This document shows positions 1,042-64,000 of a stretch of 64,000 bases of DNA, in pieces; the stretch's first letter is position 1; each line of letters opens with the position of its first letter. Location: positions 5,866,847 to 5,930,846 of the forward strand of contig NC_031672.1 of assembly GCF_001640025.1 (NCBI RefSeq). Direction: 5' to 3'. Source of the stretch: Sugiyamaella lignohabitans (Eukaryota > Ascomycota > Dipodascomycetes > Dipodascales > Trichomonascaceae). The position numbers and the translations under genes are program-made. The notes under the pieces were generated by a model. It made no database searches. It had not been told where the DNA came from and saw only the letters and a program-made list of their open reading frames with translations.

Positions 1042-1065
1042 CTTCACGAGGAGGGGAGGGATTGT

Positions 1066-1200
1066 GCCTCCGGCGGCTGGGGCTCCGCCCCAGACCCCTT
1101 AGCTCCTGCTTCGCAGGAGTGGCTGGGACCGTGGAGCAACGACTCGAGCGTAGCGAGAGGAGCAACCAGGGTCTGGGGCGGAGCCCCAGCCGCCGGAGGC
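1066..1200. repeat. GC-rich module, inverted pair, between convergent genes
   Basis: Left arm 1066-1098 and right arm 1140-1200 (a full module in reverse orientation with one extra base) can fold on each other. Between them is CTCCT (1103-1107), GCTTCGC, AGGAG (1115-1119), the inverse of the small hairpin in the neighbouring copy at 703-719. The element fills most of the 254-base gap between the zinc-protein stop and the stop of the AP180 adaptor on the other strand. Confidence 0.85.
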
Positions 1201-1295
1201 AGTACCCCGCTCGGGGTGGTTTATTTATTTTAACATTATTTATTAGAAATAAAAAAAATGCGACGTGGATAATATACGGGTTGGCTACGGCCGGT

Positions 1296-21039: not shown

Positions 21040-23526
21040 TTATTTAGTTCGTAGCAATCGTTGACGTGTATAGTAGCCATTAAAGTCCAGACGGACAGCT
21101 AGGAAACGCATCTCACTATCTTCTTCCTGCTTGAGTTTGTGTACTAGGTTTTCCACGTTGGTTGCAAAATTGTGCTGGAGCCCGTTAATTCCTTTCAGCA
21201 ACGTTTCAAAGCGGGCCAGTTCGTCTGTAGTTCTTGGAGTTGACAGGTTATGCATTCCCTCGACAAGACTTCGGAACGAGAGCACATCCTTTATAATTTC
21301 GTGAAGTTCACCAATAAGACTGCCACCACCAAGTAGACCTTTGTGAGTGATTTGTTTCAGGTATTTGCGATGCGATTCGATGGTTTCGTCGACAGTAAGT
21401 CGTCCACCTCCCTTGGCAAGCTCCTTCTGTAATGCTGACCATGACATTTCTACTACTTCGTAGTTGATATAGTACTGGAGCTCACTTATAAAATGCATCA
21501 TCTCCTGACAGGTACATCGAACTTGTCTCCAAGGCTCTTCATAAGATTTATCCACTTGTCCGCCTCGATGGCTAATTGCTAGCAGCTTCCATACATAGTA
21601 TAGTGAAAAGCTAGCCCATTTGATTCTCCACAAAAAGTTGAATACTCTTAGATACTGTCTCGACGATCGGCTATCTAAGATGACAATATCTAGAGGTTGT
21701 TCTACTCGGTATTCGAGAGTGAACACCTCCCATCCGATATCCCCATGACCCAGCTCTAGCATACGAGCGTCCACGCTTTTCAGCACCTCCGGGCTATCGA
21801 ATTGTGCATTAGAACTACGAATAGCGGTTTCCAGCATGGAAGTTAGGTGGTGCCTTAATAAGGATGCTGCTGGCTGGTCTAGCGTAGGTGCTGCTTCTTC
21901 GACTAGCAATTGGACAAAGTCACCCTTGCCTAACAATAGATAATCCTTCAGTCCTTGTAAATGGAGATCAAGATGGAATTTCGTTCGTAATAAATGATTA
22001 AGATGCTCAACGACCTGGTCGTATCCCAGGAATATTTGGTTTTCTAATTTAGTATAGTCGTTTATTGATGCCCATAGGTTGTGGTCTCTTCGCCTTGTAA
22101 CAATCCATTCGTTATCATCACATGCAACTCTGATGAAATAGAGCGTCTTGCCAGTTTCAAAAGCTTGACGAGCTATATTTGCAGACATAAAACTCGGCAC
22201 TAAATCCTGGTCGAATACAAATCGATTATTCCAAATGGCATTCGCAGATCCTATTCGAACAAAAAACTCGCCATATGGATCCACCAGTCGGCCGCTACTG
22301 ATCCATTCACTTAGAATTTCATAAAATGGTTTAGAAACTTTCCCAAGTAGTTTTTTAGCAAACAGAGATATATATTCATCTCCATTATAGGAACTTTTGT
22401 GGAGCAAGGACAGAATCTGTCCACCTTTCAGTGATTCAGACTGCCTGACAATGGAATGCAGAAGCCGCAGTCCTATTGTGGCTTCTCTGAGAAGAGAAAC
22501 ACATTTTCGTATTGTCAACAAGGATTTGTGTGAGGACTCGTCCAGTCCGCTAGTAGCGGTTCTTGTTGCAGTTGTGGCATCATCTGAATCGTTGACACGC
22601 ATAGTCTTTCGGGCCTCGTTCTCAATATATCCAACTAACGCAAGATACGAATTAAGTTCCTGGTCAATAGCACTTTTCAGAGATTGTCGCACGAGACTTG
22701 GTCGTGGTAGGCTTGGTCCTGCTGATATTGGCGTACTATGACTCGGTGCCTGCTCGGTCCTTCCATTCGCTGTCCCTCCTCGAGCATTGCTCTCATCACT
22801 TTCTGTTTCCTTGGCCTCTATCATAGACCTGATCTCTTTATATAAGAGGCCTGGCTCTAAGAGCTGGTAAGACAGGGAGATCAAAGGGAATGGAAGGGTT
22901 GAAGGGATTTCAAGCGACACTCCAGGAGATGACCCAGCACTAATTCTATCTCTGTTCTTATTTGTGATCCATTTGAAATGATTCGTTTTCAATCCTTGTA
23001 GCGCAAATGGAAGGTCTATCATCAGCTCCTCCATAGATGGAACCTGCTCATCATGTAGAGCCTGAATGTAGATACCAGGGCTATTGATGTCTACAGGGCC
23101 ACGACTTCTCGGCCTGCTCCCTGGACCACGGGGTAATCTTTGATAATCAATTTCATCAGCAACTTTAAACTTCGTATTAGCTTCAGCTGCTAGAGCTTGA
23201 TCCTGATTTTCAACATATGCCATAGAACTCAAAAACTCTAGTTGTTCAGATACATTGTTCACATTTCTATTGGACACTAACCGCGATAGAAGGTTATTGA
23301 ATCGCACTGCCACATCTGTCCCGGGTCCTAAAAGGTGCTTTTCAATATCACCAGCTATATCCTGTAGCGTATAATATTGGTTATCTCTATTGGCAGAAGC
23401 CTCCACTAATAATTGCATACATTCGTCTGCCAGAAAGTTCACTCGCTGATGAGACGCATCGGGCTGCAAAACGCTCAATACTAGTCTCTGCACCAGATCA
23501 AATATCTCGTCGTCATTACTACTCAT
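21040..23526 (-). CDS. SPC98: gamma-tubulin complex component 3 (GCP3)
   Basis: Core subunit of the gamma-tubulin small complex that nucleates microtubules at the spindle pole body. 828 residues from ATG 23526 (MSSNDDEIFDLVQRL). An upstream in-frame stretch of 20 codons lacks an ATG. GCP landmarks include the N-terminal GRIP1 region (about 170-480), with VPFA-like motif EELMIDLPFALQGL, and the C-terminal GRIP2 domain with EVFTLEYRVEQPLDIVI and FLWRIKWASFSLYYVWK. The protein ends in RLDFNGYYTRQR, the typical GCP3 ending. An Arg/Ser/Gly-rich linker (about 245-275) is likely unstructured. GCP3 rather than GCP2 is based on the end motif and overall length. Confidence 0.9.
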   Translation of the reverse strand: MSSNDDEIFDLVQRLVLSVLQPDASHQRVNFLADECMQLLVEASANRDNQYYTLQDIAGDIEKHLLGPGTDVAVRFNNLLSRLVSNRNVNNVSEQLEFLSSMAYVENQDQALAAEANTKFKVADEIDYQRLPRGPGSRPRSRGPVDINSPGIYIQALHDEQVPSMEELMIDLPFALQGLKTNHFKWITNKNRDRISAGSSPGVSLEIPSTLPFPLISLSYQLLEPGLLYKEIRSMIEAKETESDESNARGGTANGRTEQAPSHSTPISAGPSLPRPSLVRQSLKSAIDQELNSYLALVGYIENEARKTMRVNDSDDATTATRTATSGLDESSHKSLLTIRKCVSLLREATIGLRLLHSIVRQSESLKGGQILSLLHKSSYNGDEYISLFAKKLLGKVSKPFYEILSEWISSGRLVDPYGEFFVRIGSANAIWNNRFVFDQDLVPSFMSANIARQAFETGKTLYFIRVACDDNEWIVTRRRDHNLWASINDYTKLENQIFLGYDQVVEHLNHLLRTKFHLDLHLQGLKDYLLLGKGDFVQLLVEEAAPTLDQPAASLLRHHLTSMLETAIRSSNAQFDSPEVLKSVDARMLELGHGDIGWEVFTLEYRVEQPLDIVILDSRSSRQYLRVFNFLWRIKWASFSLYYVWKLLAISHRGGQVDKSYEEPWRQVRCTCQEMMHFISELQYYINYEVVEMSWSALQKELAKGGGRLTVDETIESHRKYLKQITHKGLLGGGSLIGELHEIIKDVLSFRSLVEGMHNLSTPRTTDELARFETLLKGINGLQHNFATNVENLVHKLKQEEDSEMRFLAVRLDFNGYYTRQRLLRTK

Positions 23527-54615: not shown

Positions 54616-56100
54616 ATGCTGTCGCGACTTCCATTCAAGGCAGCGGCCACGAATCCTAGCACTGCTTCTGCAACAATGTCCACAACTCGTCGTCTTTTGT
54701 CGACTTCAAAGCCAAGCTTAAGGACTTATGGTGGTCTTAAAGATCAAGATCGTATCTTCCAAAATTTATACGGCACATATGGTCACGATCTTAAAAATGC
54801 CAAGCGTATGGGAGATTGGCACAAGACCAAAGAAATCATTTTAAAAGGACACGACTGGATTATCAACGAGATTAAGAAATCCGGCTTAAGAGGACGTGGT
54901 GGTGCTGGTTTCCCTTCAGGTCTTAAGTGGTCTTTCATGAACCCACCAGGCTGGGACAAGAACCCTGGTCCCCGTTACCTTGTTGTCAACGCCGATGAGG
55001 GTGAACCAGGTACTTGTAAAGATAGAGAAATCATTAGAAAAGATCCTCACAAGCTTGTCGAGGGTTGTTTAGTGGCTGGTCGTGCTATGAATGCGACTGC
55101 TGCTTACATTTATATTCGTGGAGAGTTCTACAACGAAGCTGCTACTCTTCAAACAGCCATTAACGAAGCCTATGCTGATGGACTCATTGGTAAGAATGCC
55201 TGTGGATCCGGTTATGATTTCGATGTGTACATTCACAGAGGTATGGGTGCTTATGTTTGTGGTGAGGAAACCTCGCTCATTGAGTCCCTTGAAGGAAAGG
55301 CTGGTAAGCCCCGTCTCAAGCCCCCATTCCCCGCTGGTGTCGGTCTTTTCGGTCGCCCCACCACTGTAACCAACGTCGAGACTGTTGCTGTTGCTCCTAC
55401 TATTTGTAGAAGAGGTGGTGAATGGTTTGCTGGTTTCGGTAGAGAAAGAAACCAAGGTACTAAATTGTTCTGCATTTCTGGTCATGTCAATGAGCCATGT
55501 ACCGTTGAGGAGGAGATGTCCATTCCCCTCCGTGAATTACTTGAGAAGCACTGTGGTGGTGTCCGTGGTGGTTGGGATAACCTCCTTGGTGTCATTCCTG
55601 GTGGTTCTTCCGTTCCTGTGTTGACCCAAGACGTTTGTAATGATGTTCTTATGGACTTCGATGCCCTCAAGGATGTTCAATCTGGTTTGGGAACTGCTGC
55701 CGTAATTGTCATGGACAAGTCTACCGACATTGTGCGCGCCATTCAAAGATTCTCTTACTTCTACAAACACGAATCATGTGGTCAATGTACCCCATGTCGT
55801 GAGGGTACTACCTGGTTACTCAAGGCTATGGACAGATTCCGTGCTGGACAAGCCAAGGAGCGCGAAATTGATATGCTCTTTGAGCTGACCAAGGAGATTG
55901 AGGGTCACACTATTTGTGCTCTCGGTGACGCCGCCGCATGGCCCATCCAAGGTCTCATCAGAAACTTCCGTCCGGAGATGGAGGCCCGCATTCGCAAGTT
56001 TAACGAGGAAGTCGGTTCTGTCTCTGTTGGTGGATGGACTCCTAACTCCGGTGTCGCCAACGGCCATGTTGTAGGTGCTACTGTTCCAGGTGCCCACTAA
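54616..56100 (+). CDS. NUBM: NADH:ubiquinone oxidoreductase 51 kDa subunit (complex I, NDUFV1)
   Basis: The NADH-oxidising subunit of complex I, carrying FMN and Fe-S cluster N3. 494 residues with a Ser/Thr/Arg-rich matrix presequence (1 to about 35). FMN/NADH site [10 protein letters not shown] at 93-102 and [13 protein letters not shown] at 125-137. Cluster ligands are in [12 protein letters not shown] (about 385-396) with the fourth Cys in [13 protein letters not shown] (about 433). Its presence shows that the organism keeps a proton-pumping complex I, unlike Saccharomyces. Intron-free. Convergent with ICP55. Confidence 0.97.
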
Positions 56101-59829: not shown

Positions 59830-61350
59830 ATGTCGAAATTCTCCGACGATATTGAAAAGGACGTTCTTAGTCCTAATTTGTCCGATGAGGACCTCAGACA
59901 AACTGAAGTACACGACCTGAATTGGTTGGATCGGTTATTCCAAGAAAAATTAAATGCCGAAGTCCGTGGTATTGAGCATATTCCAGAGGAAGAGCGTCAC
60001 GATGTGTCGTATCTGAATGCTGGTTCCATGTGGTTGGGTGCCAACTTGGTTGTGGCCACTTTCAGTTTGGGTACTCTGGGTATCACTACTTTTGGCTGTT
60101 CTTTCTGGGACTCTGTGTTAACAATCATCTTCTTCAATATTTTGGGAGCTTTACCGGTTGCTTATTACTCCACTTTTGGACCCAAGCTTGGTCTTCGTCA
60201 AATGGTTATGTCTAGATTCTGGTTCGGTTATCAAGGTATCAGAGTTGTTGCTTTCTTGAACTGTATTGCTTGTATTGGTTGGACCGCTGTCAATACTATG
60301 GTTTCTGCTCAAATACTTCATACCGTCAATAATGGCTCTTTACCTCCATGGGGTGGTGTCTTGGTTATTACCCTGGCAAGTTTATTAGTAGCCGTTTTCG
60401 GTTACAAGATCGTCCACGCTTTTGAAAAATTTGCTTGGATTCCCAATTTTATCATTTTTATTATTATTGCCGTTCGTATGTCGAAGACCCATTCATTCGA
60501 TGCTGGTACTCTTGGAAGTGGCCCTAATGAGGCTGCTGCTGTGTTGTCATTCGGTGGTACTATTTTCGGTTATGCTACTGGTTGGTCTTCATATGCCGCT
60601 GATTATACCTGTTATATGCCTAAGTCCACCTCAAGAATTAAAGTCTTCTTTTTGATTCTTTTCGGACTTAGTTTCCCATTATTGTTTGCTATGATTCTGG
60701 GAGCCGCTTGTGCCACTGGTATCAACACCAACCCTCGATTTGCTTCAAACTACAATGATAACCAAATTGGTGGACTCCTCTATGCAATTATGGTTGAAAA
60801 CTCACTTCACGGTTTTGGTCAATTCTGTCAGGTTATTTTAGCCTTGTCTACCATTTCCAACAACATTCCAAATCTATACTCGTTGGGTCTTTCGGCTCAA
60901 ACCGTATGGTCTGGTTTCCGCAAAGTTCCTAGAATTGCTTGGTCAATCCTTGGTTGTGGTGTTTCTGTGGCTCTTGCTATCCCTGCTTATTACCATTTTG
61001 CCGATGTTATGTCCGACTTTATGGACCTCATTGGTTACTGGTTGGCCTTCTACAGTGCTATCTGCTTATCTGAACATTTGATCTATCGTAAATCAATTAA
61101 CAACTACGATCCTTTGGAGTATGAGAACAAGAAAACTCTTCCTATTGGAATTGCTGCTATTTTTGCCATGTGCTGTGGTGTCGCTGGTGCTGTTGTCGGA
61201 ATGTCCCAAGTCTGGTACGTGGGACCTATCGCAATTAAGATCGGTGACACTGGCTTCGGTGGTGATATCGGTTTTGAACTTGCATTTGCATTTGCTTTTA
61301 TTGGTTTCAATTCCACAAGATGGCTTGAGCTCAAATATTTCGGGCGTTAA
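59830..61350 (+). CDS. FCY2: purine-cytosine permease, NCS1 family (Fcy2/Fcy21-like)
   Basis: Proton symporter for cytosine and purines at the plasma membrane. 506 residues with 12 predicted membrane segments. Family features: N-terminal RGIEHIPEEERHDVSYLNAGSMW, the SRFWFGYQG motif, WSSYAADYTCYMP in the middle and LIGYWLAFYSAICLSEHLIYRK near segment 10. Yeast has FCY2, FCY21 and FCY22; which one this matches is open. Strong codon bias. Upstream GATAAG sites suggest nitrogen regulation. Confidence 0.92.
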   Translation: MSKFSDDIEKDVLSPNLSDEDLRQTEVHDLNWLDRLFQEKLNAEVRGIEHIPEEERHDVSYLNAGSMWLGANLVVATFSLGTLGITTFGCSFWDSVLTIIFFNILGALPVAYYSTFGPKLGLRQMVMSRFWFGYQGIRVVAFLNCIACIGWTAVNTMVSAQILHTVNNGSLPPWGGVLVITLASLLVAVFGYKIVHAFEKFAWIPNFIIFIIIAVRMSKTHSFDAGTLGSGPNEAAAVLSFGGTIFGYATGWSSYAADYTCYMPKSTSRIKVFFLILFGLSFPLLFAMILGAACATGINTNPRFASNYNDNQIGGLLYAIMVENSLHGFGQFCQVILALSTISNNIPNLYSLGLSAQTVWSGFRKVPRIAWSILGCGVSVALAIPAYYHFADVMSDFMDLIGYWLAFYSAICLSEHLIYRKSINNYDPLEYENKKTLPIGIAAIFAMCCGVAGAVVGMSQVWYVGPIAIKIGDTGFGGDIGFELAFAFAFIGFNSTRWLELKYFGR

Positions 61351-63100
61351 TGTTTTTTGACATGTTTCGTAGTTATGTGATTGTTTGTATTTTATTTTAA
61401 TGTTATTAGATTGATGATTTTAAGCTGGTTACCTCTATTTGGTATGCAGGGTTTCAAAACTCTGCATATGGCCAATGATTTTATATAGGGGATCAATGAC
61501 TTCCAATAGGGCCAATTAAGCGACAAGAAAGGCTCCGCGTATAGTTAACAGAAAGGCAAAAAATACGAATCAACAAGCGATTGCCTTACTACGGCAAGGC
61601 AATCGCTTAATCAAGAATAAGATCGCAAACGACCACTTGAATGTCTCTTCGTTCTGCTCCAGAATAGAAAATGGTGGGGCAAGATGGTGATAGTATGCTA
61701 TATAGATCTGGAAAAATGCTTACTTTAAATCTAGCAATGAATTTGCCAGATAGCCTAAGAACCGCATATAAAAACATCTTCCTAATATAGTTCGATAGAA
61801 ACAGCAACTATTGTCATACACTATAAATCCCTCTCGGCATAGAATAATATATGGTCTAGTTTGATTTATTTGATATAGACCAAACACAGTGGGGCTAGTT
61901 CAAGAGAATGCTTAATTGATCAGAAATAGAAGAGGGGTTGAGGCATGTGTGGGTTGACGAGCGGACTGTGCTATGATGGCCCGTTTGCTGTTATTTTATT
62001 GGTTATGGCAGTTCGATGTGATGTGTAAGGAGATGGTTTTGTGGTTTACACTCGGATTATATGCTGACTGGTGGGGGTTGGTTGGTTCGCTGTGGATTTC
62101 CAGTGACGGTGTTGGAAGACTGGAATTTGATTTCAATTCTATGCGTGAAATTTAAACAGTAGCTTCCTCTTGTGTGCACATTGTTCACTTTCTTGGGTAT
62201 CCAGTAGGTTTTAGACTGAACCCTTCCTCAGGACGTTATGTGTAACAATCAGGATTTTCGATTAGTCTAGAGGATCTAGAGAAGAATAATTGAATAATAG
62301 ACATAGAGACAACGATCAAAGGCTTGTATGACAAATTCTTACCAGAGGATCTTAAATAGATGTAGAGCGATAATGCAGAATAGTGGATGATGGAATTTGT
62401 GGTGCTCTGGCAGGATCCTTTGCCACAATAAAAAAGGCCTATACTATACATAATTATTTCAATACACGTTACCAGGTCTCCATCACGCTGTTGCGGTTTG
62501 GTATGTTGCCTTTCACGCAACAACTAGGGTTTAGTGACGCAAATAGAAACATGGCCCGAAGACAGAGATTGACCGCTCTGTTGGATTCTGCGTTGAATTT
62601 AAAGTTTTGGTTTATTAGGATTTTTTCCATAAAATAAAATTAATAAAAGCCTGAATGATTTGAATCAGTGAGGCAAGACTAGTGTATGTTAAGGAGATCA
62701 AACGCAGTGCAGCTACAGATTATGGTAGGTGTTCGGGGCAAGAGATAGTAGTTGATGGGGTGATTAGAGGAGCAAGTGGTATGTTGTCTGGGGAAGTTGG
62801 TGGAGTTCGAAGTGGTTTCTTGGTAGTTGAATAGGAAGTCAGGGGTATAGAAGAGCAATATAGCGCACGCAGATGAACAGTGGGGTAGGGATCTTTTCAA
62901 GAAATTCAGGTAGGATTTCACAGTGTTTTCAAAGTTGATTTGATGTTTGCATGAGTGTAGTTGTTCGGATAGGGTTCGTGGAATAGTTAGGTTTAGATGA
63001 CATAGGAGTGTGTAACAGTGGATGTAGGATATAGGATATAGGACATATAGAGAGAGAATAGGTTGTGTATAGCAATTGGGAGAATAGGGTTAGGAAGATG
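61351..63100. other. subtelomere-like region without genes
   Basis: No supported gene in 1.75 kb. From about 62640 the plus strand becomes G/A-rich and C-poor, with short tandem runs such as GGATATA repeats near 63022-63040 and a first TAGGGTTAGG at 63085-63094. Open frames here (for example 62383-62637) have no recognisable product. Confidence 0.45.
61575..61608 (+). terminator. perfect 13-base inverted repeat downstream of the permease
   Basis: AAGCGATTGCCTT (61575-61587) and AAGGCAATCGCTT (61596-61608) with an 8-base loop, about 225 bases after the permease stop. Listed as a structural element; a terminator role is a guess, since eukaryotic 3-prime ends do not need hairpins. Confidence 0.3.
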
Positions 63101-64000
63101 TAACGCTCTTTAACATTCTTAACATTTTGCGAAGCAAAATGAGGCTCTTATATAACAATATTTAGGCGAAGCCTAAATATTGTAAGTAGAAAATTTCGAA
63201 GAAATTTTCGCTCTTAGTAGCGTTAACGCTCTTAAAACAAATTTTTGGCGAAGCCTAAAATTTGTAGTAGGGACGTAGAAGGTAACAGAAGGAAGGGATC
63301 ATTAAAGTAACAGAAGAGAAAGGGATCTTTAAGGGTAACGGAATCAGCGGAATTCGTATAGTATGAGGTCACCACAGCCGGAGTTGGAGTTGGGAGTTGG
63401 AGTTGGGAGTTGGAGTTGGGATACTAGGGTTAGGATATTAACAACGCTCTTAAACATTCTTAACATTTTGCGAAGCAAAATGACGCTCTTATAACAATAT
63501 CTAGGCGAAGCCTAGATATTGTAAGTAGAAAATTTCGAAGAAATTTTCGCTCTACTAGCGTTAACGCTCTTAAAACAAATTTTAGGCGAAGCCTAAAATT
63601 TGTAGTAGGGACGTAGAAGGTAACAGAAGGAAGGGATCTTAAGGGTAACAGAAAGGAAAGGGATATTAATGGTAACAGAATCAGCGGAATTCGTATAGTA
63701 TGAGGTCACCACAGCCGGAGTTGGAGTTGGGAGTTGGAGTTGGGAGTTGGAGTTGGGATACTAGGGTTAGGATATTAACAACGCTCTTAAACATTCTTAA
63801 CATTTTGCGAAGCAAAATGACGCTCTTATAACAATATCTAGGCGAAGCCTAGATATTGTAAGTAGAAAATTTCGAAGAAATTTTCGCTCTACTAGCGTTA
63901 ACGCTCTTAAAACAAATTTTAGGCGAAGCCTAAAATTTGAAGTAGGGACGTAGAAGGTAACAGAAGGAAGGGATCTTAAGGGTAACAGAAAGGAAAGGGA
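63101..64000 (+). repeat. tandem satellite of about 337-341 bp with four GAA-triloop hairpins per unit
   Basis: Unit starts at about 63101, 63441 and 63779; the third is cut by the window edge. Each unit has, in order: a 19-base hairpin centred TTTTGCGAAGCAAAA; a 27-base hairpin centred TAGGCGAAGCCTA; a 21-base hairpin centred AATTTCGAAGAAATT; GCGTTAACGC; a 29-base hairpin centred TAGGCGAAGCCTA; purine-rich GGTAACAGAAGGAAGGGATC stretches; a GGAGTT/GGGAGTT minisatellite; and TAGGGTTAGG. First-unit hairpins are at 63123-63141, 63156-63182, 63189-63209 and 63237-63265. Confidence 0.9.

Follow-up and report, generated by a model that had tools for sequence, protein, structure and literature searches.

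A terminal tandem satellite with four triloop hairpins per unit at chromosome ends of Sugiyamaella lignohabitans

The window analyzed here, a stretch of 64,000 nucleotides forming the right end of contig C1 (C1:5866847-5930846) in the Sugiyamaella lignohabitans assembly (4 contigs, 15,932,016 bases), terminates in a tandem satellite, each unit of which carries four short hairpins. The same array is terminal at seven of the eight contig ends, namely both ends of C1, C3 and C4 and the left end of C2, and the subtelomeric location that the first-pass annotation had proposed from this one end was thus borne out. We tentatively favor the interpretation, at somewhat under even chances, that this is a recombining, end-specific tandem satellite of a Y'/TAS-like kind, in which the hairpins promote exchange. 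Exchange between ends, through unequal exchange, break-induced replication or circles, would grow the arrays and keep them alike, with the segment bounded by TAGGGTTAGGA acting as the unit. Hairpins with a GAA loop on the outward strand might stall forks, or be cut when single-stranded, and so lead to exchange, and the true telomere repeats made by telomerase would lie beyond the assembled ends. This interpretation is supported by the end-only location, the common orientation and flank, the likeness of distal units beside diverged proximal ones, and the folding potential of the unit; that the stems are not specially conserved within the unit copies counts against it.

Tandem Repeats Finder recovered the array, previously described as having units of about 340 bp, with a period of 337 and 2.7 copies (Table 1). 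The unit begins with a block of about 164 bases containing the four hairpins, followed by an AG-rich minisatellite of 27-bp period, a repeat-free stretch, a block of a G-rich 13-mer and finally TAGGGTTAGGA. The G-rich block spans 3.2 copies in both complete units of this end and more in the first unit at the right end of C3, and the heptamer CGCTCTT lies within about 20 bases upstream of hairpins 1, 2 and 4. The earlier statement that no gene explains the array was upheld: the longest ATG-started frame wholly within it spans 43 codons, which rules out a gene or a coding repeat, and a single frame of 67 codons, lacking a start, is truncated by the contig end. Inward of the array, the frame of 300 or more codons lying closest to the subtelomere encodes a cytosine/purine-type permease (PF02133; window 59830-61350), and metabolic genes lie further inward, including one for a complex I 51-kDa-type subunit (54616-56100), 7 of the 18 frames of at least 300 codons having been scanned.

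Table 1. Features of the window, in window coordinates
Feature	Position	Strand	Remarks
Terminal tandem array	63102..64000	+	Tandem Repeats Finder; 96% matches; 899 bases; runs off contig end
Common subtelomere, directly proximal to array	62300..63101	+	BLAST between ends
TAGGGTTAGGA before unit 1	63085..63095	+	exact match, C1:5929931-5929941
TAGGGTTAGGA before unit 2	63425..63435	+	exact match
TAGGGTTAGGA before unit 3	63762..63772	+	exact match
Unit 1, proximal, diverged	63102..63442	+	341 bp
Unit 1 hairpin 1	63123..63141	+	8 bp, loop GAA
Unit 1 hairpin 2	63155..63183	+	13 bp, loop GAA
Unit 1 hairpin 3	63189..63209	+	9 bp, loop GAA
Unit 1 hairpin 4	63237..63265	+	13 positions, one T.T mismatch four pairs from loop, loop GAA
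AG-rich 27-bp minisatellite, unit 1	63282..63332	+	Tandem Repeats Finder
3.2 copies of G-rich 13-mer, unit 1	63380..63421	+	telomere-like; candidate only
Unit 2	63443..63779	+	337 bp; first 223 bases as in unit 2 at right end of C3
Unit 2 hairpin 1	63464..63482	+	8 bp, loop GAA
Unit 2 hairpin 2	63494..63522	+	13 bp, loop GAA
Unit 2 hairpin 3	63528..63548	+	9 bp, loop GAA
Unit 2 hairpin 4	63575..63603	+	13 bp, loop GAA
AG-rich 27-bp minisatellite, unit 2	63619..63680	+	Tandem Repeats Finder
3.2 copies of G-rich 13-mer, unit 2	63717..63758	+	Tandem Repeats Finder
Unit 3, ended by contig end	63780..64000	+	221 bp; differs from unit 2 at 1 of 221 bases
Unit 3 hairpin 1	63801..63819	+	8 bp, loop GAA
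Unit 3 hairpin 2	63831..63859	+	13 bp, loop GAA
Unit 3 hairpin 3	63865..63885	+	9 bp, loop GAA
Unit 3 hairpin 4	63912..63940	+	12 bp, outermost pair broken, loop GAA
Dispersed element copies	620-758, 1065-1201		
Dispersed element halves	6553, 21010, 42919, 44652, 46767, 46802		

A 900-base query from the array found strong matches at the right ends of C1 and C3, the left ends of C3, C1 and C4, the right end of C4 and the left end of C2. Among the best-scoring candidates of this query, the interior of the genome contributed four weak matches, three to G-rich minisatellites and one to a degenerate relic, so that the satellite is present at several ends and otherwise leaves only these traces. The relic (C3:238296-238382) extends from the right arm of hairpin 4 to the minisatellite and is possibly an old end fusion or a repair insert; G-rich minisatellites similar to the unit's 13-mer were noted in the interior, at about 624.5 kb of C1 and 2543.9 kb of C2. 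At all seven array-bearing ends the orientation is the same and the outward order is common subtelomere, TAGGGTTAGGA and units. By BLAST, the right end of C1 matches each of the six others over about 1 kb at 82-96% identity, array included (in two pieces for the right end of C4), and the shared subtelomere before the array spans 0.4-1.1 kb, varying with the two ends compared. The remaining end, the right end of C2, is the only one without the satellite, and its final 1.2 kb are of unrelated sequence; as this contig has a round length of exactly 4,950,000 bases, with N at 22,500 of the terminal 30,000, the end is largely masked and yields no conclusion.

Individual elements of the unit differ in their restriction to chromosome ends. 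The core of hairpin 3 has 10 genomic sites, all within units at ends, and no genomic site carries the full stem of this hairpin with exactly one mismatch. The first-pass annotation had further suggested that inverted repeats centered on GCGAAGC might mark chromosome ends; this proved not to be so, since GGCGAAGCC occurs 285 times genome-wide (42 times in its reversed control), with 20 occurrences in the 10 array units and 265 elsewhere, some of these inside a dispersed element discussed below (for example, C1:66895 and C1:596883). TAGGGTTAGGA occurs 17 times, 10 of them immediately preceding the 10 units and 7 elsewhere, against 13 for its reversed control. Over 22 bases that end in TAGGGTTAGGA, the flank preceding unit 1 matches the tail of every complete unit at 19 or 20 positions, suggesting that the repeating segment may be excised and joined at this point.

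A hairpin scan detected four C-GAA-G triloop hairpins per unit, with stems of 8, 13, 9 and 13 bp. All four are perfect in unit 2, three in unit 1, where hairpin 4 is imperfect, and in unit 3 only the outermost pair of hairpin 4 is lacking. Four triloop hairpins with stems of at least 8 bp in unit 2 compare with a mean of 0.0052 and a maximum of 1 in 5,000 dinucleotide-preserving shuffles, and the remaining 63.1 kb of the window hold two, neither with a GAA loop. Folded as DNA, the 164-nt block reaches -40.4 kcal/mol as against -15.19 +/- 2.96 for 200 shuffles (z -8.5), none of which was as good. In a census of perfect stems of at least 7 bp over 280,175 bases (the window and other loci of the genome, 22,500 bases being N), 127 had a three-base loop, whereas the remaining loop sizes between 0 and 11 gave 21-60 each; the majority of the 127 have stem ends matching those of the satellite or the dispersed element. 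The pattern of hairpin 1 had no matches in virus contigs, and that of hairpin 2 none in bacterial or archaeal species genomes.

Two earlier claims about the loops needed amendment. Every unit at the seven ends does contain four hairpins, and the loop is GAA in 37 of 40 (10 units), the three exceptions being copies of hairpin 3 with TTA once and TTT twice. Likewise, the heptamer GCGAAGC is present in three of the four hairpins, and hairpin 3 has TCGAAGA in its place. The stability attributed to d(GCGAAGC) is confirmed in print: passages of PMC4686876 describe it as melting at 78 C, resisting nucleases and protecting 3' ends when attached there, and describe GNA loops closed by two or more G-C pairs as very stable as a class. 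A GNA loop with at least two closing G-C pairs is found in hairpins 1, 2 and 4 of all 10 units, and hairpin 3, with its single G-C pair, has the GAA loop in 7 of 10. That the loop has been kept in the former and has changed only in the latter fits a constraint on the mini-hairpin, though, with so few changes, this is a hint only.

The 37 GAA loops all lie on the strand running 5' to 3' toward the chromosome end, at each of the seven ends. This outward strand is the lagging-strand template for an outward fork, the 3'-ended strand and the strand of TERRA sense. The two strands of each hairpin have equal energy in the folding program, and a strand preference would therefore rest on the printed data for GNA loops rather than on the folds.

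The ten units that we compared, three of them complete, comprise seven first and three distal units. Every array is ended by its contig end, with one partial unit at five ends and two to three units at two ends, and homogenized distal units are consequently seen at two ends only. Only the right ends of C1 and C3 have assembled distal units; unit 2 of the one is identical to unit 2 of the other over 223 bases, and units 2 and 3 of the former differ at 1 of 221. Across the seven first units diversity was 0.021 in stems, 0.031 in the spacers of the block and 0.135 in loops (all of it in hairpin 3), compared with 0.050 over the 200 columns preceding the array, 0.088 over the full 471 preceding columns and 0.206 in the sequence distal to the block. 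The block is thus more conserved than the sequence following it (14/164 vs 24/58 variable columns, p = 1e-7), and the difference from the preceding 200 columns is not significant (14/164 vs 28/200, p = 0.14).

These comparisons bear on the suggestion of the first-pass annotation that the array has been selected for a folded single strand. Selection specifically for the fold was not substantiated among the unit copies: stems do not differ significantly from spacers in conservation (4/86 vs 7/66 variable columns in the seven first units, Fisher p = 0.21), and in the 10-unit alignment no measure of covariation stands out, the score being reached by 208 of 500 shuffles; compensation among unit copies does not exceed that in shuffles. 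Hairpin 1 and the stem of hairpin 3 are perfect in all ten units, hairpin 2 in six (two others with wobbles and two with mismatches) and hairpin 4 in four (five with T.T and one without the outer pair). The evidence that the fold is kept is mixed, with three compensatory pairs between hairpins 2 and 4 on one side, and on the other perfect pairing in only 2/7 first units for hairpin 4 and 3/7 for hairpin 2.

With their flanks, hairpins 2 and 4 share 37 of 45 aligned positions, and are apparent duplicates. Of the 13 stem pairs, 3 differ between the two hairpins in the distal unit, all of them by full compensatory changes. The covariation score of the combined alignment is 0.205 as against 0.089 in shuffles, was reached by none of 500 and is destroyed by sliding the partner, in a set of 20 copies with 9 distinct, where related sequences can beat shuffles. 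The numbers of pairs with double changes and of pair types are unexceptional, having been reached by 191 and 186 of 500 shuffles, respectively. As the rows form two groups, the signal amounts to evidence from about three events. The odds of the pattern come to 4.6e-5, a value computed after the pattern had been seen and assuming common descent. Judged from these sequences, the palindromy of hairpins 2 and 4 has been kept through change, either by selection or by templated correction, and the strand must have folded in both cases.

Templated correction leads to the most viable alternative, which we consider unlikely but deserving of attention, namely that this is an ordinary subtelomeric satellite in which the hairpins were duplicated and remained palindromic through template-switch (quasi-palindrome) correction, the fold itself being functionless. 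Template-switch correction can produce double changes in one event, and those between hairpins 2 and 4 could have arisen in this way. The stems, not significantly more conserved than the spacers, agree with such an origin, and T.T in hairpin 4 of 5/10 units together with a mismatch in hairpin 2 of 2/10 suggests that mismatches are tolerated. However, the GAA loop is not maintained by such correction, yet it is unchanged in all 30 copies of hairpins 1, 2 and 4 and is common to four hairpins with different stems.

It is also conceivable, though quite doubtful, that the outward strand is transcribed into a TERRA-like RNA in which the hairpins act, for example in processing, protein binding or as a Dicer substrate. 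The GAA strand has the orientation of TERRA at 7/7 array-bearing ends, and as RNA the 164-nt block folds with a z of -7.1, 0/200 shuffles being as good. Against this, no Rfam model matched up to E = 1 in 62501-64000, which sets aside the known structured RNA families searched there, and U-G wobbles account for two cells as against eight unpaired among 387 (43 stem pairs in nine distinct units), which is not an RNA-like pattern of tolerance.

Could the array be the telomere itself, as a Chironomus-like terminal satellite or as telomerase-free fold-back hairpin ends? Known telomere repeats include GGGTTAGTCA and TTAGGG. For relatives of this species, a part of PMC13130702 gives the repeat as TAGAACGGG. 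In the outer 10 kb of the eight ends (75% masked at the right end of C2) neither TAGAACGGG nor doublets of GGGTTAGTCA and TTAGGG were found in tandem, and a single TAGAACGGG occurs in 9.6 kb at the right end of C4, with none at the other ends; the true telomere accordingly lies beyond the assembly or is unrecognized. That seven of eight contig ends stop inside the array without any of these three repeats in tandem would suit a terminal satellite, as would a unit length near the ca. 350 bp given for Chironomus in passages of PMC9498494. The G-rich block is telomere-like, and a 15-mer from it, GGAGTTGGGAGTTGG, has 8 exact matches in the genome, 7 of them within arrays and the eighth in a minisatellite of the interior; as G-rich minisatellites also occur in the interior, the 13-mer is no more than a candidate interstitial telomere. 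Six of the seven arrays stop between bases 218 and 226 of the unit and the seventh at 186, in the AG-rich minisatellite, and we infer that such stops fit assembly breaks, not natural ends. Furthermore, the genome contains a predicted telomerase reverse transcriptase gene on the minus strand (C1, around 650862-651263) in one uninterrupted 1067-aa frame with the Telomerase_RBD (114.7 bits) and RVT_1 domains. As a Chironomus-type terminal satellite goes with the lack of telomerase, and both diagnostic domains are present in this predicted frame, it is very unlikely that the array is the telomere.

Hairpins of a related form were encountered in a dispersed element, which provides the base for a separate proposal and not for the above verdict on the end satellite. 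The pattern GGGGC-NNN-GCCCC occurs 6,370 times in the 15.9 Mb genome, and its reversed form once. It is part of an element bounded by TGCCTCCGGCGG and CCGCCGGAGGCA, with terminal inverted repeats TGCCTCCGGCGG, each holding triloop hairpins, and often 137-139 bp in length. In 23 stretches searched we found 19 paired forms, 12 of them of 133-145 bp and two sharing one right end, and 29 halves; besides those in the window, further copies lie at several other loci. Target-site duplications were not obvious by eye, the pattern had no matches in virus contigs, and a 17-mer of the commonest form appeared in no paper of the open-licence literature searched.

A second hairpin of this element, CTCTCGC-NNN-GCTCGAG, occurs 3,399 times genome-wide (reversed pattern, 0), and its loop is T-N-C in 3,296 of these, which reads as C-GNA-G on the complementary strand. 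Among 35 copies recovered at up to 8 mismatches, this loop's middle base has an entropy of 1.95 bits (T 11, G 10, C 9, A 5), and its neighbors are nearly invariant (T 35/35, C 33/35); variation elsewhere is seen at spacer positions 24 and 25 (0.99 and 1.33 bits, respectively) and at two bases of the first loop (0.9 each), the rest having at most 0.42 bits. The stem of the C-GNA-G strand contains a GA/GA internal loop in a C-GA-G context, which we take to be a stable DNA motif. Against the hairpin, the folding program pairs it otherwise, with four pairs and a seven-base loop, and shows no stability beyond that of shuffles (z 0.09 and -0.02), though it has no terms for such motifs. In the first hairpin, 4,419 of the 6,370 loops genome-wide are GNA/TNC, and the 58 copies examined obey this rule in 38 (TCC 31, other TNC 7, not TNC 20); because a single triplet dominates, this count alone is not evidence for a GNA preference, and the middle-base pattern is confined to the second hairpin. 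A factor reading hairpins on a folded single strand, be it a nuclease, a transposase or a replication protein, would explain both the satellite and the dispersed element. We regard it as improbable, if worth stating, that C-GNA-G DNA mini-hairpins serve the nucleus as a functional component in this manner. If it were true, selection at chromosome ends and on mobile DNA would act on DNA folding rather than on coding or duplex binding.

Returning to the end satellite with exchange-promoting hairpins, arrays at seven of eight assembled ends would, if the hairpins matter, offer a simple system for examining a role of folded single strands in driving subtelomeric recombination or protecting ends, and the dispersed element extends the question of folded strands to thousands of sites. 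On the same condition, the hairpins would represent a natural case of the ultrastable DNA triloop of the test tube, built four times into one strand of an end satellite. The closest known systems appear to be the Y' and X elements and telomere-associated repeats of Saccharomyces and other yeasts, which are likewise end-specific, oriented outward, present at most ends, tandem in places and located beside G-rich, telomere-like sequence; homogenization between ends, known for those elements, is suggested for the satellite by the identical distal units of C1 and C3. Y' encodes a helicase, and the satellite differs in having a unit of 337 bp without a long frame (the 43-codon maximum given above leaves none for a helicase), half of which is the four-hairpin block. 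Chironomus terminal satellites also have long units at chromosome ends, which passages of PMC9498494 describe as kept by recombination, and differ in that S. lignohabitans has a predicted telomerase gene. The GC clusters of yeast mitochondria (GC42), described in part of PMC4478555 as short palindromic hairpin repeats with a constraint on the stem, are mitochondrial and dispersed, unlike the satellite, and compare better with the dispersed nuclear element. The stable, nuclease-resistant and 3'-protecting d(GCGAAGC) and GNA-loop mini-hairpins treated in the cited passages of PMC4686876 resemble the satellite in the GCGAAGC of three of its four hairpins; they are synthetic oligonucleotides, whereas those of the satellite occur in nature, have longer stems rich in A/T and recur four times per unit at almost constant intervals. 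The open-licence literature, judged on titles, the starts of abstracts and some passages, yielded no description of such an array, in agreement with the impression recorded at first reading. In kind, then, the satellite is telomere-associated, and its sequence and its four GNA-type hairpins per unit are new to us.
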